Source of the DNA: a virus
IMG/VR virus record: IMGVR_UViG_3300032797_000152
Span: 1-24,484 of that record
Reading direction: 5' to 3' (one strand)
DNA length: 24,484 bases
Shown: positions 2 to 20,971 of the stretch, piece after piece
Numbering within the stretch: the first letter of the stretch is position 1
How the letters are laid out: every line of letters begins with the position of its first letter
Notes under the pieces: generated by a model
What the model was told of the DNA's origin: nothing
The model's input: only the letters and a program-made list of their open reading frames with translations
Databases searched by the model: none
Position numbers and translations under genes: made by a program

Positions 2-1510
2 GGGTCGAAAAATCCGATTGAAAGAGATTGGACAAATATTGCACATTACGAAAAAACTGATTGGATTAAATGGCTTAATAATGGACTTAATATAGGAGCA
101 CGCACAGGAGAAGTTAGTGATATTACAGTCATAGATGTAGATAATAAAGGTACTATCGATGATACTATGATTACTTGGCGACAAGAAATTATAGAATTAT
201 TATGGGCATCGAAGACATTAGTACAGATTACTCCTTCTGGAGGTTTCCATTTTATTTTTAAATATGATAAAGATATTAAACAGGCAGTAAATTTAGCAGG
301 AACTCATATTGATGTAAGAAACGATGGTGGACAAGTAGTAATTCAACCTTCTATTGTAGATAGTAAAACATATCAATTTGAAGCGATTGATTTGCCAATC
401 GTTGCAATTCCTGAAGCGATTAAAGAGAAGTTATTACATATACAAAAGCAAACTCCTAAAATAGAAGAGGCTCCTAAATTAGAACTACCTCCTATGAGAT
501 TAAAGAATAATAATCTAGATGGTTGTTGTAATGATACATTTGTGCAACTTGGAGGTATGTTAAGGAAAGAATTAAATGTTAATCAAGTAAGATATACTTT
601 ATCTCTCTTAAATAAATATCTTTTGCAAGACCCCATGGATTCTAAAGCTATAGAATCAATGCTCTCTAGTTTGGACGGTTATCATAAAGGCGAAGACGAA
701 GCAATTGAACAAGAGATTGCTAAATATTTTAAGGTTATGCAGAACGACGTTACTGCTAAAGATATTATGGATAGTCTTAGTTTAAAAAGAGGTATTGTAG
801 ATAAATATCTCTCTAAATTAGCATTAGAAAATAAAATTATTCGTTTAGGAAGAGGTCGTTATAAATACCGTGAACGTATTGAATGGTCAGATACATTTCC
901 TATAATGGGAGCAACTTATCCTCATAAAATACCGTATTTTGACCATATTGCTTATTTTGAAGAAGGAGATATTATGTTGCTCGGAGGACGTACTAATGTA
1001 GGGAAAACTACTATAGCAATTAATATGCTTAAATATATGAAAGAACAAGGAGTTAAACCTTATTATATTTATAACGAATCTGGAAGTAGATTTGTAAAAA
1101 TTATGAATACATTAGGATTAAAAGAAGGAGACTTTTTCTTTAAATTTCATACCAATCCTTTATCCATTGAAATAGAACCAAATGCTTTTACAATTATTGA
1201 TTGGCTACTTATTGAAGATAAATCTACTACCGATGTAGTATTGGGTCATTTGAATCAAGAAATGCAACGTAAAGGAGGATTATTAGCTATCTTTTCGCAG
1301 TTAAAAGACGATAGTTCCTGGTTTGCTCCTAATTTAATTCAACAATTTCCTGCATTTGCAGCGCGTTATGTTTATTTAACAGACGATGGTAGAGAAGGGC
1401 AGTGGATTTGTGATAAGATTAAAGAGCCTAAAGGGAAATATAAGTCCTATATTATAAATTGCTCATATCTTTTTGACCAAAAGATTCTCCAACTAAAGGA
1501 GCAAATCTAA
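2..1510 (+). CDS. Bifunctional primase-polymerase / RecA-fold helicase, 5'-truncated
   Basis: The open frame runs in from the left edge, so the N-terminus is missing; the first ATG at 167 is internal because coding continues upstream with a typical Prim-Pol stretch (NIGARTGEVSD then VIDVD). Counting from position 2, D45/D47 form archaeo-eukaryotic primase motif I, GGFHF (His83) is motif II and IDVRNDGG (Asp104) is motif III. A winged-helix-like segment lies at about 247-293. A C-terminal RecA/KaiC-type ATPase follows, with Walker A GGRTNVGKT at 328-336 and a Walker B aspartate near 400. By family knowledge such fusions make RNA or DNA primers and unwind DNA at the replication fork; this one probably serves phage replication with the polymerase downstream. 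The next gene starts at the base after its stop, so the two are probably co-translated. Confidence 0.88.
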   Translation, partial: GSKNPIERDWTNIAHYEKTDWIKWLNNGLNIGARTGEVSDITVIDVDNKGTIDDTMITWRQEIIELLWASKTLVQITPSGGFHFIFKYDKDIKQAVNLAGTHIDVRNDGGQVVIQPSIVDSKTYQFEAIDLPIVAIPEAIKEKLLHIQKQTPKIEEAPKLELPPMRLKNNNLDGCCNDTFVQLGGMLRKELNVNQVRYTLSLLNKYLLQDPMDSKAIESMLSSLDGYHKGEDEAIEQEIAKYFKVMQNDVTAKDIMDSLSLKRGIVDKYLSKLALENKIIRLGRGRYKYRERIEWSDTFPIMGATYPHKIPYFDHIAYFEEGDIMLLGGRTNVGKTTIAINMLKYMKEQGVKPYYIYNESGSRFVKIMNTLGLKEGDFFFKFHTNPLSIEIEPNAFTIIDWLLIEDKSTTDVVLGHLNQEMQRKGGLLAIFSQLKDDSSWFAPNLIQQFPAFAARYVYLTDDGREGQWICDKIKEPKGKYKSYIINCSYLFDQKILQLKEQI

Positions 1511-2080
1511 ATGCTAATACCATTCTTAGTTTGCTTATTCATTTTAATTATTATACACGAATTATCTCATTTTCTAGCGGCACGATTAGTTGGTTGCGAT
1601 GTAGAAATAGTAAGTATAGGATTTGGTAAGCCAGTATTATTTAGTAAAAAAATAGGCAAGACAACTTATAGAATTACTCCTTGGCTTCTTGGAGGTTACT
1701 GTAAGTTAAAGGGAGAACTCGAATATACGCAAGAAAAGAATACATTCTCTAATTTAAAATACGGACAAAAAGTAATTTTGGCAAGTGCAGGATGTGCGGC
1801 TAATATTTTAACAGGAATTTTAGGAATTCTTTTAGGAAACTATTTTCATAATTATTATATATATCTTTATGGTTATCTTGGAATACTTCTAGGAATTGGT
1901 AATATGATACCTTTTCCTGCGCTTGATGGAAGTTATTTATGGTTATTTGGACTAGAGAAAATATATGGGAAGAAAAAAGCTTATCCTATTATGCAGAAAA
2001 TAGTTCGATGGGGATTTACAGTTCTTATGATATTAAATATTGTATGTATTCCTTATTTAATTCAAGTATGGAGTAGATAA
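1511..2080 (+). CDS. Membrane-embedded metalloprotease, site-2 protease (M50) family
   Basis: A 189-residue hydrophobic protein carrying the M50 signature set. HELSH (H16, E17, H20) lies in the first membrane helix and binds the catalytic zinc. LLGGYCKLKGE resembles the RseP/S2P PxGGYVKxxGE loop. ASAGCAANIL matches the AGPxxN motif, and IPFPALDGS supplies the conserved aspartate of the NxxPxPxLDGG motif. There is no PDZ domain, so this is a minimal member, much shorter than RseP. The family cleaves transmembrane segments of substrate proteins inside the membrane, often anti-sigma factors or signal-peptide remnants; the substrate here cannot be inferred. The start directly follows the primase stop, and the last base is shared with the next ATG. 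Confidence 0.85.
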   Translation: MLIPFLVCLFILIIIHELSHFLAARLVGCDVEIVSIGFGKPVLFSKKIGKTTYRITPWLLGGYCKLKGELEYTQEKNTFSNLKYGQKVILASAGCAANILTGILGILLGNYFHNYYIYLYGYLGILLGIGNMIPFPALDGSYLWLFGLEKIYGKKKAYPIMQKIVRWGFTVLMILNIVCIPYLIQVWSR

Positions 2081-9019: not shown

Positions 9020-9191
9020 CGAATATTTAGATTTATCTTGGATAATAATAGAAACTGATTATATATGCGGAAGCAAATTTTATATAATCAAAGAAAAACC
9101 TTGTTGGGTAGAAGTAGCCAGATTTGTGAATCCTAAAGATTGCTTTCAATATGTATTACAACGAATAGAAGATAAAGAAAGACAAAGATGA
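9012..9191 (+). CDS. Hypothetical protein, 59 aa
   Basis: Small gene overlapping the DUF5662 gene by 8 nt and the next gene by 4 nt (ATGA). The product looks like a mixed alpha/beta domain (SWIIIETDYICGSKFYIIKE, then a basic C-terminus). It occupies a gap that would otherwise be 170 nt. Overlap geometry at both ends is the main support. Confidence 0.5.
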   Translation: MYDEYLDLSWIIIETDYICGSKFYIIKEKPCWVEVARFVNPKDCFQYVLQRIEDKERQR

Positions 9192-9577
9192 TAAATTTAA
9201 AACTTCTATTAGATATAGTAGGATTTATAATGATTTATACGGGATGGTTAGACGCATATAAATATCATGTAAGTGCAAATACTATCCGAAAAGTAAAAAC
9301 TGCTCACGGACATTCTAGACGTTTTATAAACTACGCTTTAATTAACGATATTATGCGTATAATTTATTTAGGGGTCTCTGCGTTAGTTTTTGAACGAATA
9401 GATTGGTTTTTAATTATATGTTGTATTTTTGCTATTATTTTTATGATAGAACATTGGCTTACAGTTTATATTTACTATCCATATAGAAGAAGAGGATTAC
9501 AAGGATTTAAAAGACCTCATCTTGGTATATATTTTATTAATTCCATATTGCCGAATCGTATCAGGAGAAGACTCTAA
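9188..9577 (+). CDS. Hypothetical membrane protein, 129 aa, about three helices
   Basis: Predicted inner-membrane protein. Hydrophobic segments lie at about residues 4-19 (LKLLLDIVGFIMIYTG), 55-67 (IMRIIYLGVSALV) and 74-95 (WFLIICCIFAIIFMIEHWL), and a basic loop (NTIRKVKTAHGHSRR) separates the first two. The C-terminus is arginine-rich (RIRRRL). The function is unknown. It is in operon with the small gene upstream through an ATGA overlap and is followed by a clear AGGAGG for the next gene. Confidence 0.6.
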   Translation: MINLKLLLDIVGFIMIYTGWLDAYKYHVSANTIRKVKTAHGHSRRFINYALINDIMRIIYLGVSALVFERIDWFLIICCIFAIIFMIEHWLTVYIYYPYRRRGLQGFKRPHLGIYFINSILPNRIRRRL

Positions 9578-13829: not shown

Positions 13830-14574
13830 TACTACCCCTAAATGTAGGCTAGGAAAATGTAAATCATGTAAAAAATCTAGGGATATTAGGTCAAAATCTA
13901 AATTATGTATTATTTGTTGGAGGAAATTTGCAATAGGAAAAAATGCTATTTTTTATGGTAAACATCATACTAAATTGGCAAAACAAAAAATGAGTAAATC
14001 TCAAAAAGGTAATAAAAATGGATTCAAAAATGGTAAACCAGTCTGCATTAATTGCAGAAAAGAAATTAATTATAATACCACTAGATGTTCTCTTTGTTTT
14101 CATAAATTATTAAGTAAAAAATTAAAAGGTATTAAACCAAGTCAACAATGTTTAAAAGCAGCAAAAAAAGCAAATTCTCATCCTATGTCAAAAGAACAAA
14201 AAGAAAATATAAGTAAATCATTATTAGGGAAAAATAAAGGAAAAAATAGCGCGTTATTTGGTAAAAAAGCTCCTTTTATTAAAAAAATAAAATATAAACA
14301 TATAAAAATGCGTTCTTCTTGGGAGGTTGCTTATGCTAAATATTTGGACAAGAATAATATTAAATGGCTTTATGAACCTAAAACTTTTGATTTAGGAAAT
14401 ACCACTTATACTCCCGATTTTTATCTTCCAGAAACTGATACTTATATAGAAATAAAAGGTAGATGGTTTAAAGATTCTAAAGAAAAATTTCTTTTATTTA
14501 AGAAAAAATATTATAGCGTTAATATAACTTTATTAACTAAAAAAGAATTAGCACAATTAAAAATAATAAAATGA
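13822..14574 (+). CDS. Free-standing homing endonuclease: zinc finger, NUMOD3, PD-(D/E)XK
   Basis: A 250-residue lysine-rich protein. N-terminal cysteine pairs (C13/C16, C29/C32) suggest a zinc finger, with another set at 75-92. Two NUMOD3-like modules follow, near HTKLAKQKMSKSQKG (49-63) and MSKEQKENISKSLLG (122-136), which read DNA in homing enzymes. The catalytic part is PD-(D/E)XK: SSWEVAYAKYL (E168), YTPDFYLP (D199) and TYIEIKGRW (E210, K212). It should cut an intergenic or gene target in phages lacking it and spread by repair copying. It overlaps the RecA-like gene by 8 nt and the next gene by 4, so it was inserted neatly without breaking neighbours. Very high lysine content with AAA codons differs from the replication genes. 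Confidence 0.85.
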   Translation: MIDTTPKCRLGKCKSCKKSRDIRSKSKLCIICWRKFAIGKNAIFYGKHHTKLAKQKMSKSQKGNKNGFKNGKPVCINCRKEINYNTTRCSLCFHKLLSKKLKGIKPSQQCLKAAKKANSHPMSKEQKENISKSLLGKNKGKNSALFGKKAPFIKKIKYKHIKMRSSWEVAYAKYLDKNNIKWLYEPKTFDLGNTTYTPDFYLPETDTYIEIKGRWFKDSKEKFLLFKKKYYSVNITLLTKKELAQLKIIK

Positions 14575-15017
14575 CCATTAAAATCTTTATATGGATGATT
14601 ATTTTAGCTTTATTTCATAGTCTCCAAGAAACTCAGATAGAAGGGAAGGCAGGATGGGCGCGGCATTTGCCTACATTTAGAATATCTACATTTATTACAA
14701 AACTTTTACTTAATAAAGAAATTACAGGTTATCATATTTTTATGCTATTAATGTATATTACAATTTTTCATGGAATATATTTATTTAATCCTTGGACATT
14801 AAAAACTGAATTTACAATATTTGGATTATTAAGTTGGTATTTTATTATAGAAGATTTTTTATTTTTTCTTGTAAATCCTCATTACGGTATTTCTAAATTT
14901 AAAAAAGGAAGTATTTCTTGGCATAGACGTTGGATACTTAGATATATTCCAGTAAGTTATATATGGGGTACGATTGTAGGAACTATTTTATTATTAATTG
15001 GAGATTATAATGGCTAA
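14571..15017 (+). CDS. Hypothetical four-helix membrane protein, 148 aa
   Basis: Predicted integral membrane protein with hydrophobic segments near residues 3-17, 53-73, 81-103 and 123-143. Between them are conserved-looking polar motifs: LQETQIEGKAGWARHLPTFR after helix one, IIEDFLFFLVNPHYGISKF at helix three, and SWHRRW before the last helix. The concentrated Glu/Trp/His residues facing the membrane border look like an enzyme or metal site rather than a simple channel. I do not recognise a named family. It overlaps the homing endonuclease by ATGA. Confidence 0.6.
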   Translation: MTIKIFIWMIILALFHSLQETQIEGKAGWARHLPTFRISTFITKLLLNKEITGYHIFMLLMYITIFHGIYLFNPWTLKTEFTIFGLLSWYFIIEDFLFFLVNPHYGISKFKKGSISWHRRWILRYIPVSYIWGTIVGTILLLIGDYNG

Positions 15018-15547: not shown

Positions 15548-16168
15548 ATGATTAAAAAGACCTTTGAAACTAAATTAGAAGTAGATATATATTTGGCAGA
15601 ACAAAAAATACGAATGGAAAGGGGCTATCTTACTCGTTCTGAAAGAGAAGAAGTAAAATCGTTGTTTGCCAATCCTGCCGCACTTATCCAACCAAAAGTA
15701 GTTTTAAAAGGAAGAAAAATAATTACTAATATTGATGAGCTAAAACAACCTTGCGAACTTGCCACAGATACAGAAGTTCCTGCAATTATTAAAGCTTTAG
15801 AAGAAACTTTAAAAGAAGTGGGAGGATATGGATTATCTGCTCCTCAAATAGGAATTAAAAAGCAAGTAGCAATTATTCGTATAGGAGAAAAAAAGAACGA
15901 GCCTGGAGTATTTCAAACTAAAGAAGACTTAATTAATCCTGTAATCGTAGATAAAGGAGAACAAGTTCAATCTTATGAACGCTGTCTAAGTCTGCCAGGA
16001 ATAGGTTTAATAGTTAATCGTTACGCATATGTGATGGTTGAAATGAATAATAAGAAAACTTATTTTATGGGTTTTGAAGGAACTGTTGTCCAGCACGAAA
16101 TAGACCACCTAAAAGGTCTTCTAATTACAGACCGTAAGTATAAAGATATTAATCGGAGAAAAAAATAA
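15548..16168 (+). CDS. def: Peptide deformylase with N-terminal extension
   Basis: A 206-residue protein with all three deformylase motifs: GYGLSAPQIG (93-102), ERCLS (144-148, consensus EGCLS) and QHEIDH (182-187). C146, H183 and H187 are the metal ligands and E184 the catalytic acid. The enzyme removes the formyl group from nascent proteins at the ribosome. Phage versions are known, especially in marine cyanophages, and are thought to keep host or phage membrane proteins maturing during infection. About 55 extra residues precede the usual start of the domain and are charged and helical. The second residue of motif II is Arg rather than Gly. The preceding 70-aa basic gene may be a partner. 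Confidence 0.92.
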   Translation: MIKKTFETKLEVDIYLAEQKIRMERGYLTRSEREEVKSLFANPAALIQPKVVLKGRKIITNIDELKQPCELATDTEVPAIIKALEETLKEVGGYGLSAPQIGIKKQVAIIRIGEKKNEPGVFQTKEDLINPVIVDKGEQVQSYERCLSLPGIGLIVNRYAYVMVEMNNKKTYFMGFEGTVVQHEIDHLKGLLITDRKYKDINRRKK

Positions 16169-16641: not shown

Positions 16642-17298
16642 ATGAGAATGACTCTAAAACTAAAAAATATTAAAAGTTTTACTATGGCTCGTTCTTGGAA
16701 ATTAGGTTTAATTAAACCTAGTAAACCAAAAGGAATAGAATTAATTCCTTTAAAAAAGGGAACTAAATTTAATCATTTAACAATTATAAAATTACATCAT
16801 ATTGTATGGAAATATCAAAGAAGTAATTATTATTATTTATGTCAATGCGACTGTGGAAAGAGAAAAATTATCGTTAAAGAATCTATTCGTAATGGTGAAA
16901 CCAAGTCTTGCGGATGTTATCGTAGAAAATTGTGCGGAAAATCTCATAGAAAAGAAAAATTTATGTCTTCTGCTAGAGCAATATATCGTCTATTAAAAAT
17001 ACGAGCCAAAAATAAACTACAACCCTTTAAATTATCTTTTATTGACTTCGTTCATATAGCTCGCAAAAATTGTTTCTATTGTGGAAAACGACCTAGTCAA
17101 GTTATGCAATCACATAAAAACCATTATTATGGAACTTTTTATTATAATGGTATTGATAGAATAAATTCTCAGAAAGGTTATATCAAAACTAATGTAATTA
17201 CTTGTTGTAAATACTGTAACTATGCAAAAAATGATTTAACTACTACACGATTTTTTAATCATATTAAAAAAATCTATGAACACATTAAAAATAAGTAA
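16642..17298 (+). CDS. HNH homing endonuclease with zinc-binding N-terminal domain
   Basis: A 218-residue basic protein. The first half has CQCDCGKRKIIV and ETKSCGC (C67-C71, C90, C92), the zinc-binding DNA-recognition module seen in phage AP2/HNH endonucleases. The second half is an HNH nuclease: CFYCGKRP (C144, C147), YNGIDRINSQKGY (N169, D172), then TNVITCCKYCNYAKNDL (N184, C189, C192, K196). It is expected to cut homing sites in related phages. The ATG at 16642 follows AGGAGAG by about 14 bases, a long spacing; a downstream ATG at 16648 is also possible. Its 3' end overlaps the start of the transporter by 23 nt, suggesting that insertion reshaped this junction. Confidence 0.85.
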   Translation: MRMTLKLKNIKSFTMARSWKLGLIKPSKPKGIELIPLKKGTKFNHLTIIKLHHIVWKYQRSNYYYLCQCDCGKRKIIVKESIRNGETKSCGCYRRKLCGKSHRKEKFMSSARAIYRLLKIRAKNKLQPFKLSFIDFVHIARKNCFYCGKRPSQVMQSHKNHYYGTFYYNGIDRINSQKGYIKTNVITCCKYCNYAKNDLTTTRFFNHIKKIYEHIKNK

Positions 17299-18457
17299 TA
17301 AATTATTTTGGATATATCTTTTATCGGCAACAATATATGCTTGCCAAGGACTAGAAACTTTACCGTCATTATCTTTGTTCTTTTTCCTTAAAGAAAAACT
17401 TGGTTTTTCTGCTGAAAAAATAATGTACATTGGCAGTATTACAGGATTAGCATGGCTCGTAAAGCCTTTATGGGGATATTTAGCCGATAACTATTTAACT
17501 AAAAAATCTTGGATTTTAATCTCTTTATTGGGTAGTATTTTAATATCCTTGTATTTTGGATTGTCTCCTATTCTTCCTTTGGGTATGCTAATTTTAATGT
17601 CTTCTTTAGGTGGATGGACTTCAGCAATGAGGGATACTTCTGTAGATGGTATTATGTGTGTTTCTGGTAAAGAACATAATGAATGTGGAAGAATTCAAGC
17701 TTTACAGTGGGCTTCAATTACAGTTGCTAGTATTATTGTAGGTTTAGGTGGAGGATATATAGCCGACCATTTTTCATATAAATTCGGATACTTATGTCTT
17801 ATTCCTATATATCTAGTTATTAGTATGATTGTATTAAAATATCGAACATGTGTTCAAAATAATGAACATAAGTCCAAAATTTTAGATACTATTAAATCAT
17901 ATAAAGTTCTATTTACGGATAAAAGATTCTTATGGGCGTGTTTATTTCTATTTCTTTATAAATATAGTCCTAGTTTTGGTACTCCTTTAGCCTTTATTGA
18001 ACGAGATGGATTTAAGTGGTCAGGAATGTGGATGGGAACTTTAGGAGCAATTGTATCAGGATTTGAAATCTTAGGAGCCTTAATTTATTTTAAAATAGGT
18101 AAAAAAATTAATATAAAGAAATGGTTAATTGCTTCTGTATTCTTGGGAGCTACTACTACCTTATGTTATCTTAAATTTACTCCTATTACTGCAGTAGTTT
18201 ATGGAATATTATTTGCAATCTTAGGAATGTTTGTTCATTTAATAATTATGGCGTGGATGGCACAGAATACAATCACAGGAAAAGAAGCAACTTCCTTTGC
18301 TCTTTTATGTTCCATCAGTAATTTATCTGCAACTTCTTCCTCCCTTTCGGGAGCTTTTTTATATCCTAAAATAGGATTACAATGGCTTATTATTCTTTCT
18401 GCCGTTACTAGTTTTATATGCTTACCTTTAATTCGTAAACTTGAATTAACTAAATAA
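17276..18457 (+). CDS. Major facilitator superfamily transporter, BT1/AmpG-like
   Basis: A 393-residue, very hydrophobic protein with about twelve membrane helices, the full MFS length. The segment SITGLAWLVKPLWGYLADNY (around 53-72) matches the PWxxKPLxGxxSD motif A region of BT1 (folate/biopterin) and AmpG-type transporters, and AMRDTSVDGIM (about 117-127) matches their conserved D-x-x-VD loop. It would move a small molecule across the host inner membrane; the substrate cannot be told from sequence. It is followed by a LicD transferase and a CDP-ribitol-type synthase, so a sugar or precursor is conceivable. The ATG at 17276 lacks an obvious ribosome site (only an A-rich tract precedes it), and the HNH gene runs 23 nt into it. 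Confidence 0.82.
   Translation: MNTLKISNKLFWIYLLSATIYACQGLETLPSLSLFFFLKEKLGFSAEKIMYIGSITGLAWLVKPLWGYLADNYLTKKSWILISLLGSILISLYFGLSPILPLGMLILMSSLGGWTSAMRDTSVDGIMCVSGKEHNECGRIQALQWASITVASIIVGLGGGYIADHFSYKFGYLCLIPIYLVISMIVLKYRTCVQNNEHKSKILDTIKSYKVLFTDKRFLWACLFLFLYKYSPSFGTPLAFIERDGFKWSGMWMGTLGAIVSGFEILGALIYFKIGKKINIKKWLIASVFLGATTTLCYLKFTPITAVVYGILFAILGMFVHLIIMAWMAQNTITGKEATSFALLCSISNLSATSSSLSGAFLYPKIGLQWLIILSAVTSFICLPLIRKLELTK
18340..18360 (+). terminator. Terminator-like hairpin inside the transporter gene
   Basis: CTCCC at 18340-18344 pairs with GGGAG at 18349-18353 around a TTTC loop. One C then precedes six T at 18355-18360. This is the form of a small intrinsic terminator, but the stem is only five pairs and lies within coding sequence (SLSGAFL), so it may be chance. 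If active it would reduce transcription into the LicD and CDP-ribitol genes. Confidence 0.3.
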
Positions 18458-18466
18458 GGAGAAATA

Positions 18467-19111
18467 ATGAACGATTTTTTGGAGAAATTTAAAGCGCAGA
18501 CCAAAGAAGAAATAAGTAAATTAAATTATAAAAAATATTTGTATCAATTTAATGAATTAGAAAAAAAGCAGTTTGCTAATGAGATGAAAGATATAGAAAT
18601 CTATTTTAAAAGAAATTTAAGTTTAGAGATATATCCTGTCTATGGAACTCTCTTAGGTATAATTAGGGATAACGATTTTATTGGTTGGGATACTGATATT
18701 GATTTAGCATATTTAAGCAAATATCATACTAATGAAGAAGTAATAAAAGAATTTAACGAGATTTGTAGTTTTTTAGAAGAGAAAAAATTATTATTATATA
18801 GAATAAAAACTATGAGTCATCTTCATGTATGGTCTCCTAATAAAGGATTAAGAGTGGACTTGTGGATTTCCTGGATGGATACAAATAATAATTACCATAT
18901 AGTCTGGACAGTATCAGGAGATATTGATTCTTCTATGATTTTACCTTTTAAGACTGTAGAATTTAAAGGGCAAACATTCCGCCAAATGAATGACCCTGAA
19001 AGATTTTTAAATGAGCATTATCCCAATTGGAAAATACCTTTAGATGGAACGGCAAATGATTGGGCAAAAAGAAAACCACGATTTGAACTTGAACCGTGGC
19101 ATGGAAAATAA
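18467..19111 (+). CDS. LicD-family nucleotidyl/phosphotransferase
   Basis: A 214-residue LicD/fukutin-type protein. YGTLLGIIR (59-67) and FIGWDTDIDL (71-80; D75, D77, D79) are the family's GTLLGxxR and WDxDxDI motifs. RVDLWISW supplies the later strand acid, and FRQMNDPERFLNEHYPNW is the usual C-terminal signature. Members transfer phosphocholine from CDP-choline or ribitol phosphate from CDP-ribitol to glycans. The next gene encodes an enzyme with the domain layout of CDP-ribitol synthases, so ribitol phosphate is the more likely donor group here; that is inference. No signal peptide is seen, so it acts in the cytoplasm. The start has GGAGAA upstream. Confidence 0.9.
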   Translation: MNDFLEKFKAQTKEEISKLNYKKYLYQFNELEKKQFANEMKDIEIYFKRNLSLEIYPVYGTLLGIIRDNDFIGWDTDIDLAYLSKYHTNEEVIKEFNEICSFLEEKKLLLYRIKTMSHLHVWSPNKGLRVDLWISWMDTNNNYHIVWTVSGDIDSSMILPFKTVEFKGQTFRQMNDPERFLNEHYPNWKIPLDGTANDWAKRKPRFELEPWHGK

Positions 19112-19112
19112 A

Positions 19113-20354
19113 ATGAAAAATATAGGTATAATTTTAGCAGGGGGTAACGGAAGTAGATTCGGGAGCCAAATTCCAAAACAATATATGTCTCTTAATGGTA
19201 AACTTGTCATTCAATATGTTATAGATGCTTTTGAAGAATCTAAATATTTTGACCAGATTATAATTGTAGGAGAATATTTTAATACTAAACATATGATAGT
19301 TAAACCTGGAACCACACGTAATGAATCAATACAACATGGATTAGATGCTTGCCCTAATGATACAGACAATGTATTATTCCATGATGCTGCTAGACCATTT
19401 ATTAAAGCTAAAGATTTGCCTCAATATTTTGGAGCATTAATGTATAATGATGCCGCAGTTACTAGTGTTAAAATCACAGATGCGATGTTTCCAAAATTTG
19501 AAGATAGAACGCGTCATACATTGATACAAACTCCTGAAGCTTTTAGATTTAAAAAATTAATGGAAGTTTTTAATGTAGAAAATACTGATTGTATTGCTAT
19601 TTATCAACATCTTATTTCTAGTAATAGTAATATAGGTTTAATTGAACTTTCTCATCAAAATATGAAAATAACTTATCCCCAGGACCTTTATATAGCAGAA
19701 CAATTAATGAAATATAAAGAAGTAATTAAAAGAACTTCTGACGTTAAAGGAAAGGATATTCTTATTTTTGGAGGTACAGGAGGAATCGGAATTGCTCTTA
19801 CAAAACAATTAAATGAATTAGGAGCTAATGTTATATCTTTAGGAAGTAATGATGCAGACTTATCTAAATCAGTTTCTACTTTTACTTCTGACTATACTAA
19901 TTTTGATTGTATTATCTATTCTGCAGGAAGTTATGCTACCGATTCTGAAGGATTGATTAATAGTTATGATAAAATAATGAATGTAAATTTTAAGAGTATT
20001 GTTAATATTGTAGAAAATGCAGAAACAATGCTTAAACCTGGAGGAAGTATAATTCTATTAGGTTCTACTGCCGCTTCATTTGGTAGACCTGGAATTGCTC
20101 TTTATTCTGCTTCTAAAGCGGCTTTAAATTGCTTTGTAGAAGCCATAGCTCCTACATTAGCTAAAAAAGGATTTAGAATTAATGTAATCTGTCCTGCCAA
20201 AGTAGCTACTCCTTTACAGACTCATATTAATCCTAATGCTAACCAGAAAGAGATGATTCAGCCAGAAGATTTAGCTAAAATTATAATAGGATATATAGAT
20301 ATAAATGTAACAGGACAGATTGTATATGTCAAAGTAGGTATGACAAATATTTAA
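19113..20354 (+). CDS. Fused IspD-like cytidylyltransferase and short-chain dehydrogenase (Acs1/Bcs1-like CDP-ribitol synthase)
   Basis: A 413-residue two-domain enzyme. Residues 1-205 are an IspD/TarI-type cytidylyltransferase: LAGGNGSRFGSQIPKQYM (8-25), FHDAARPF (89-96) and LIQTPEAFRF (137-146). Residues 214-413 are a short-chain dehydrogenase: FGGTGGIG (219-226) binds the dinucleotide, YSAG (269-272) is the NAG-like motif, S318 lies in LLGST and Y331-x3-K335 in YSASK. Haemophilus Acs1 and Bcs1 share this order; they reduce ribulose 5-phosphate with NADPH and join ribitol 5-phosphate to CTP to give CDP-ribitol. Length is somewhat below those enzymes. In-frame ATGs at 19044 and 19101 lie in the LicD gene; 19113, directly after its stop, fits the domain start. 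Confidence 0.85.
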   Translation: MKNIGIILAGGNGSRFGSQIPKQYMSLNGKLVIQYVIDAFEESKYFDQIIIVGEYFNTKHMIVKPGTTRNESIQHGLDACPNDTDNVLFHDAARPFIKAKDLPQYFGALMYNDAAVTSVKITDAMFPKFEDRTRHTLIQTPEAFRFKKLMEVFNVENTDCIAIYQHLISSNSNIGLIELSHQNMKITYPQDLYIAEQLMKYKEVIKRTSDVKGKDILIFGGTGGIGIALTKQLNELGANVISLGSNDADLSKSVSTFTSDYTNFDCIIYSAGSYATDSEGLINSYDKIMNVNFKSIVNIVENAETMLKPGGSIILLGSTAASFGRPGIALYSASKAALNCFVEAIAPTLAKKGFRINVICPAKVATPLQTHINPNANQKEMIQPEDLAKIIIGYIDINVTGQIVYVKVGMTNI

Positions 20355-20365
20355 AGGGAGGAATA

Positions 20366-20971
20366 ATGAAAAAAAGTAGAAATAATCAGGATTTTGAATT
20401 TCCAAATCCAAATCCGTATGAAGTATTATTAAATGAAGCACGTTATATTCTTCTTTATGATGTAATTAATAGTGAAAGCGCAAAAGAAGTAAATACTAAA
20501 TTACTTGGTATGGCACTTGAACATTGTAAAGCTCCTATTTATCTTGAAATTAATTCTGTTGGAGGGTCTGTAGCAGATGGAATTGCAATTATGAATACTA
20601 TTCAGCATATTCCTTGTCCTGTAATTACTATTATTAATGGAGAAGCATGTTCTATGGCTGGAATTATTTCAGTCATGGGGAGTATACGAATGATGACTCC
20701 TCATTCTTATTGGTTGGGTCATCCCATGTATGATGAAGTTGGAGGAAATCCTCAAACTATTCAAGATAGAGGAATTTATTTGAGTAAACTAGAAGAAGAT
20801 TTACAGTCAGTATTTAAAACAAAAACAAAATTAACTAGCGAAGAATTCCAAAAAATGATGAGAGGCGAATTATGGCTTTCAACTAATGAATGTTTAGCTA
20901 AAGGTATTGTTGATGAAATAGTAGAAACTGGAAAACGAGTTATAAAAATTATAAAAAAGAAAGGTAAATAA
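20366..20971 (+). CDS. clpP: ClpP-like serine protease
   Basis: A 201-residue ClpP/crotonase-fold protease. EINSVGGSVADGIAIMNTI (61-79) forms the oxyanion and strand region, GEACSMAGI (92-100) carries the nucleophile S96, and YWLGHPM carries H119. The third position, where E. coli ClpP has D172 (ERDRFLS), aligns with GELWLS, so E168 replaces Asp. The N-terminal residues that dock unfoldase partners are not recognisable. Phage ClpP proteins serve either as prohead proteases or as peptidases acting with host ATPases; this one is away from any recognised capsid genes in the window. AGGGAGG precedes the start. Confidence 0.88.
   Translation: MKKSRNNQDFEFPNPNPYEVLLNEARYILLYDVINSESAKEVNTKLLGMALEHCKAPIYLEINSVGGSVADGIAIMNTIQHIPCPVITIINGEACSMAGIISVMGSIRMMTPHSYWLGHPMYDEVGGNPQTIQDRGIYLSKLEEDLQSVFKTKTKLTSEEFQKMMRGELWLSTNECLAKGIVDEIVETGKRVIKIIKKKGK

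Follow-up and report, generated by a model that had tools for sequence, protein, structure and literature searches.

A predicted PDZ-less RseP-type site-2 protease maintained in a clade of phages

We find that a small open reading frame (ORF) of a 24,484-base IMG/VR virus record (IMGVR_UViG_3300032797_000152; this whole stretch is called the window in the following) almost certainly encodes an M50 protease of the RseP type. The encoded protein lacks the PDZ region of its bacterial counterparts and is conserved in 12 related viral contigs, where its gene is accompanied by a peptide deformylase (PDF) gene and by peptidase genes. We propose that the protein is an active enzyme within a phage proteolysis set that clears single-pass membrane segments; for this statement as a whole, our confidence stays somewhat short of even.

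Sequence and predicted fold of the window protein

The initial annotation had described a minimal site-2 protease without a PDZ domain, based on the motifs HELSH, GGYCKLKGE, AGCAAN and PALDG. All four are found in the ORF (AGCAAN at residues 93-98, PALDG at 136-140), and the description is borne out by the Pfam match, the catalytic residues kept in homologues and the predicted RseP fold. The ORF starts with an ATG that directly abuts the stop codon of the preceding Prim-Pol/helicase ORF, with an AAAGGAG-like ribosome site just 5' of it. Respective coordinates are provided in Table 1.

Table 1. Location of the M50 gene, its sequence elements and its genomic neighbours in the window (position ranges) and of a second protease in one related contig (last line)
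Feature	Location	Strand	Basis
Prim-Pol/helicase, directly 5' of M50 in the window only	2..1510	+	PF09250 4.8e-16
PDZ-less RseP-type site-2 protease (Peptidase_M50), 189 aa	1511..2080	+	PF02163 3.8e-32, phmmer, AF2 model, VIA-align, conservation in 12 viral contigs
HELSH zinc motif (H16, E17, H20), transmembrane helix 1	1556..1570	+	invariant in 11 homologues; model helix 2-26
Membrane-reentrant beta region, residues 31-69, with GGYCKLKGE (61-69)	1601..1717	+	model strands; G61, G62, Y63, L66, E69 invariant
Two-residue turn 113-114 in place of the bacterial RseP PDZ region	1847..1852	+	model helices 84-112, 115-130; phmmer jump
NMIPFPALDG, extended LDG motif, predicted third zinc ligand D139	1901..1930	+	N131, P134, P136, D139, G140 invariant in 11 homologues
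Conserved island gene for a small multi-pass membrane protein (cluster c9, ~145 aa)	14571..15017	+	11/13 genomes
Peptide deformylase (PDF)	15548..16168	+	PHROG 4.8e-25; PF01327; PDB peptide deformylases 1.7e-18
MFS transporter (AmpG/BT1-like) of the island	17276..18457	+	PF07690 5.8e-22, PF03092 6.3e-16; 11/13 genomes
ClpP-like serine protease of the island	20366..20971	+	PF00574 5.7e-33
Membrane-anchored trypsin/HtrA-like protease	L079:12416-13501	-	homologues L081-L091; surfaced in control scan of one relative

The match to the Pfam family PF02163 (E 3.8e-32, 111.9 bits, cut-off 27.2) is split into two segments, one on each side of the missing PDZ part. A similar split is observed when the protein is compared with solved structures by phmmer. 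Here, Aquifex RseP (aq_1964, 9j82) matches with E 2.1e-24, where residues 2-105 of the query correspond to residues 3-105 of the chain and residues 116-178 to 356-418. That is, the alignment jumps from residue 105 to 356 of aq_1964, such that the phage protein lacks a stretch of about 250 residues that comprises the PDZ region, while its PALDG aligns to the LDG motif of aq_1964. Among the NCBIfam models, RseP is the best match (equivalog TIGR00054), but the score of 107.1 bits is below the equivalog cut-off of 147.55 and the protein is thus not filed as RseP itself. A search of PHROGs gave no matching family. A chance or spurious ORF as reading of 1511-2080 is ruled out by the Pfam match, the matches to RseP structures and the invariant residues in homologues.

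We built an AlphaFold2 model of the protein from 11 homologues (mean pLDDT 86.2, pTM 0.78). The model shows helices at residues 2-26 (including HExxH), 84-112, 115-130, 139-152 (opening with the LDG aspartate) and 154-188 as well as beta strands at 31-38, 44-48, 51-55 and 58-66. Its similarity to solved enzymes was assessed by global alignment with VIA-align, for which unrelated structures start at Z 6.8. Alignment to Aquifex RseP (9j82_A) covers 187/189 residues (Z 19.2, rmsd 2.7) and alignment to E. coli RseP (7w6x) 181 residues (Z 17.9), while the group III enzymes score lower (MjS2P, 3b4r, Z 11.6; SpoIVFB, 8vjl, Z 11.2). The protein is thus predicted to have the RseP-type membrane core fold, and no fold keeping the zinc ligands apart was seen.

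RseP/YaeL from E. coli (7w6x) and Aquifex (9j82) shares with the phage protein the HExxH motif in helix 1, the reentrant beta region with GGY, the AGxxxN motif in helix 2, the NxxPxPxLDG motif in helix 3 and a C-terminal helix. In contrast, helices 2 and 3 of RseP are separated by the PDZ region (about 250 residues), where the phage protein has a two-residue turn, and the latter is phage-encoded with PDF and peptidases as neighbours. The group III enzymes MjS2P and SpoIVFB are PDZ-less as well and have the core fold in common with the phage protein. They are, however, clearly farther in sequence and fold score, with the N-terminal half of the phage protein being far closer to RseP, and their C-terminal CBS domain is absent from its 189 residues.

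Homologues in related phages

Using the window M50 protein as a single query sequence against viral contigs gave no relative. Relatives were reached via DNA polymerase B (12 contigs, 7 with M50), and a profile of the phage M50 proteins then gave 12 related M50-bearing viral contigs (IMG/VR) in all. Complete homologues have 189-220 aa and 44-50% identity to the window protein, and none of them contains a PDZ domain. Positions invariant in 11 homologues include H16, E17, H20, G61, G62, Y63, L66, E69, G94, N98, N131, P134, P136, D139 and G140; a homologue without the HExxH residues was not seen among them. In a tree of the shared core, the phage proteins cluster together (support 100/100) and are separated from the 19 longer RseP-type sequences included. 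For all M50 pairs tested, dN is lower than dS, namely four- to eight-fold in the two close pairs, which differ at few positions, and roughly two- to three-fold in divergent pairs.

We also considered that the window gene could be a bacterial RseP fragment or contamination rather than a working phage gene. Indeed, the public 'phage' records with M50 matches MT836050, MT835981, MT836562, MT835953 and OQ572403 contain full-length RseP-like genes (354-452 aa) that are bacterial in look and probably represent bacterial contamination. The window ORF, on the other hand, is complete with intact catalytic residues, is kept in 12 related viral contigs with common synteny, and belongs to a clade of phage proteins. 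A search for the terminase family phrog_2 in 11 relatives gave no match; viral nature is supported by a tail tape measure protein encoded by one of them, by replication genes and by the IMG/VR class. Given the conservation of M50 among phages, we regard the reading as a bacterial fragment or contamination as ruled out for all practical purposes.

We also looked for a cellular counterpart without PDZ region. A pattern-limited scan of 84,980 species for a ready-made PDZ-less RseP gave partial matches only, mostly to full-length RseP. In 287 genomes of the phylum of locus L051, the matches listed span little beyond residues 2-113 (a few reach to about 140) and lie in frames of at least 266 aa. 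The eight genomes behind these loci also contain short M50 frames (196-227 aa), which match only residues ~80-180, and weakly. Thus, within the sampled bacterial genomes (few phyla), a cellular PDZ-less RseP-type gene was not found as a close relative.

Intramembrane proteases had been called unusual for phages in the initial annotation. This holds insofar as M50 is rare among phages, but it is not unheard of. BFVD contains two proteins of uncultured Caudovirales with an M50 fold and matching names (A0A6J5SMS1 and A0A6J5RHB6, the latter named SpoIVFB-like), which show a TM-score of about 0.6 to the window protein at 18-21% identity. With such annotated examples, the occurrence of M50 in a phage is no novelty as such. 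We found no study of these two proteins and no paper on phage-encoded site-2 or intramembrane proteases in the open-access literature searched.

Genomic neighbourhood and a second membrane protease

The M50 gene had been assigned to a phage replication operon. This is correct for the window, where it abuts the Prim-Pol/helicase gene, but not for the 12 relatives, where it is found with PDF and peptidases. Therefore, the placement in a replication operon is a peculiarity of the window genome. In 12/12 relatives, PDF is located directly or nearly directly 5' of M50: six contigs (four independent lineages) show a 4-nt overlap of ATGA type, three further contigs a spacing of 0, 2 and 4 nt, two contigs a gap of 163 nt and one contig an intervening HNH-type gene. 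Both genes are present as single copies in 13/13 M50-bearing contigs. They are jointly missing from G012, the other long contig, which is the only real absence, since the contigs G004 and G011 (without M50 and PDF) end too near the polymerase gene. On the 3' side of M50, relatives encode an MFS transporter, one or two ClpP-like proteases and a metallophosphoesterase.

The window otherwise follows the gene order of its relatives (SbcD/SbcC-like, c9, deformylase, MFS, LicD, IspD-SDR, ClpP, metallophosphoesterase), such that M50 alone has moved, to a position after the primase. The resulting distance to PDF of 13.5 kb implies that tight linkage is not essential, and the deformylase-M50 link may be mere co-transcription. 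For the c9 protein, whose gene is kept close to deformylase in 11/13 genomes, no family was found in Pfam and PHROG searches. The window deformylase belongs to the same family as known phage peptide deformylases (PHROG 2890), which are reported among pelagiphage auxiliary genes (PMC9599517), while we found no description of a deformylase paired with a site-2 protease gene.

Several other genes of the region were recorded. At 18467-20354 of the window, a gene for a LicD-type protein precedes one for an IspD-SDR fusion (cytidylyltransferase and dehydrogenase, TarI/TarJ-like), which points to modification of a surface polymer under phage control. A small membrane protein (cluster c5; window 9188-9577) is present in 13/13 genomes compared and shows weak SWEET/MtN3 similarity (PF03083, E 0.0017 for the L041 copy). 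Relatives encode an S-adenosylmethionine synthetase (L049:4775-5716) and a Mom DNA-modification protein (L040:7641-8270), hinting at modified phage DNA. At a contig end, L080:5575-5886 is a short open frame of GMRHTRL/GMRQTRL repeat units.

Further peptidases are observed next to M50 in individual relatives, i.e., an M16 peptidase in G010 and G017, an M17 peptidase in G005 and an HslV-family peptidase in G014. The latter, an HslV/proteasome-type protein, is encoded just 3' of M50 (L078:3674-4264, minus strand; PHROG 1040, 1.7e-16). Searches over 16 contigs showed that the M16, M17 and HslV-like genes each occur once in a genome, at no more than about 3 kb from M50. If the four peptidase genes were placed randomly on their contigs (97, 86, 33 and 106 kb), the probability that none of them would be farther than 3 kb from M50 is roughly 4 in 100,000, a figure that overstates the case because families and distance were picked after the neighbours had been seen. 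The clustering is also in part a look-where-you-found-it effect, since neighbours were scanned first; a partial control scan of one relative revealed a further, trypsin-like peptidase 28 kb from M50. ClpP-like genes (15 copies in 11/16 contigs) are close to PDF/M50, and their products also resemble head maturation proteases.

The trypsin-like protease from the control scan is encoded in 12/16 related contigs and in 10/13 M50-bearing ones, the three without it being short pieces. Based on motif and alignment, a hydrophobic stretch at the N-terminus and the H, D and S positions of the catalytic triad are present in 11/12 fetched copies. By sequence, the protein matches HtrA/Deg proteases in the PDB (4e-13). 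The two copies scanned for domains show trypsin-type domains only, i.e., no C-terminal PDZ. In most relatives, the gene is about 20-29 kb from M50. In G014, where its position was checked, it is located 5' of the primase, which corresponds to a region beyond the left edge of the window. It is also found in the distant relative G012, which has neither M50 nor PDF.

It is possible that this protein is the site-1 protease partner of M50. With a DegS-like protease encoded alongside the RseP-like one, most relatives hold both halves of a DegS-RseP-type cascade, each without its gate. Similar to the sigma-E cascade of DegS, RseP and ClpXP, the relatives combine a membrane-anchored HtrA-type, an RseP-type and a ClpP-like protease. 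In contrast to it, both membrane proteases of the putative phage cascade are without PDZ, their genes are not adjacent, and no sigma/anti-sigma pair was seen.

The gene set makes it conceivable that phages run regulated intramembrane proteolysis themselves, i.e., that the DegS-like protease and M50 cut a host anti-sigma factor and free the host sigma factor without a stress signal. If true, this would serve phage transcription or envelope changes; it comes near to the sigma-factor release suggested in the initial annotation. Beside the joint presence of both protease types and the membrane anchor and triad of the PDZ-less serine protease, this reading can draw on the observation that E. coli RseP with a disrupted PDZ region cuts RseA without prior site-1 cleavage (PMC10202637). 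We nevertheless judge it unlikely, given the distance between the two protease genes, the presence of the serine protease without M50 in G012, and regions examined in which no sigma or anti-sigma gene was seen.

Proposed function and alternative roles

We propose that the window protein functions as a zinc metalloprotease within the membrane, that it belongs to the RseP type (group I site-2 proteases) and that its periplasmic PDZ gate was lost. Judging from the RseP family, it would cut the transmembrane segment of single-pass proteins, mostly of N-in/C-out topology, near the cytoplasmic face. In RseP, the PDZ region acts as a size filter (PMC4597795, PMC10202637). With this filter gone, the phage enzyme should act without prior regulated trimming and be limited by its beta loop. 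Given the genome context, PDF, M50 and the ClpP-like protease could form a phage set for membrane and peptide proteolysis, which may be extended by M16, M17 or HslV-like peptidases in some genomes and by the membrane-anchored PDZ-less HtrA/DegS-like protease in most relatives. Its likely job is the trimming and clearing of signal-peptide stubs, small membrane proteins and anchors left by the serine protease in the infected cell, where cytosolic peptidases would finish off the released fragments. A more far-reaching version, in which the PDZ-less serine protease, the PDZ-less M50 and the ClpP-like protease act together with PDF as a complete, ungated DegS-RseP-ClpP relay that rewires or clears the host single-pass membrane proteome upon infection, appears doubtful to us.

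General clearing is in line with known RseP activities, since RseP removes signal peptides (PMC8144685) and degrades small membrane proteins including HokB (PMC10470546). The same activities also support a role in counter-defence. That is, M50 could destroy host-encoded small membrane toxins or abortive-infection peptides that form pores and thereby keep the membrane intact until lysis, which a PDZ-less form should do without hindrance and which agrees with M50 being kept throughout the phage clade. However, a connection of M50 to known anti-defence genes was not found, and general proteolysis accounts equally well or better for the recurrent company of PDF and peptidases, such that we consider counter-defence unlikely.

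Another role, of which the part on a phage membrane protein was also put forward in the initial annotation, would be the dedicated processing of a single phage membrane protein or secreted peptide, e.g., the release of a signalling peptide from a signal-peptide stub, as known for the enterococcal pheromones that RseP/Eep makes from lipoprotein signal peptides (PMC10202637). Candidate substrates are encoded nearby in relatives, namely the small membrane proteins c9, c21 and c5 and, in five genomes, the short signal-peptide-bearing protein c19. But c9, c21 and c5 are multi-pass proteins, and neither the window nor most relatives contain c19. Furthermore, a hydropathy screen of the genes adjoining M50 in relatives revealed no general conserved single-pass partner. 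Such a dedicated role therefore seems quite improbable.

Research on intramembrane proteases concerns their part in cellular signalling and quality control. The conservation of M50 beside PDF and peptidases suggests that phages bring their own kit for proteolysis in or at the host membrane. For the PDZ-less RseP-type core, its pairing with PDF and the presence of a DegS-like protease in most of these phages, there seems to be no earlier description. The phage M50 family represents the catalytic core of RseP with its gate lost in evolution, fixed in a phage clade and tied to PDF. As such, it provides a natural experiment on the purpose of the PDZ region as well as a small RseP-type enzyme for structural work, and it points to membrane-protein proteolysis as a phage strategy.
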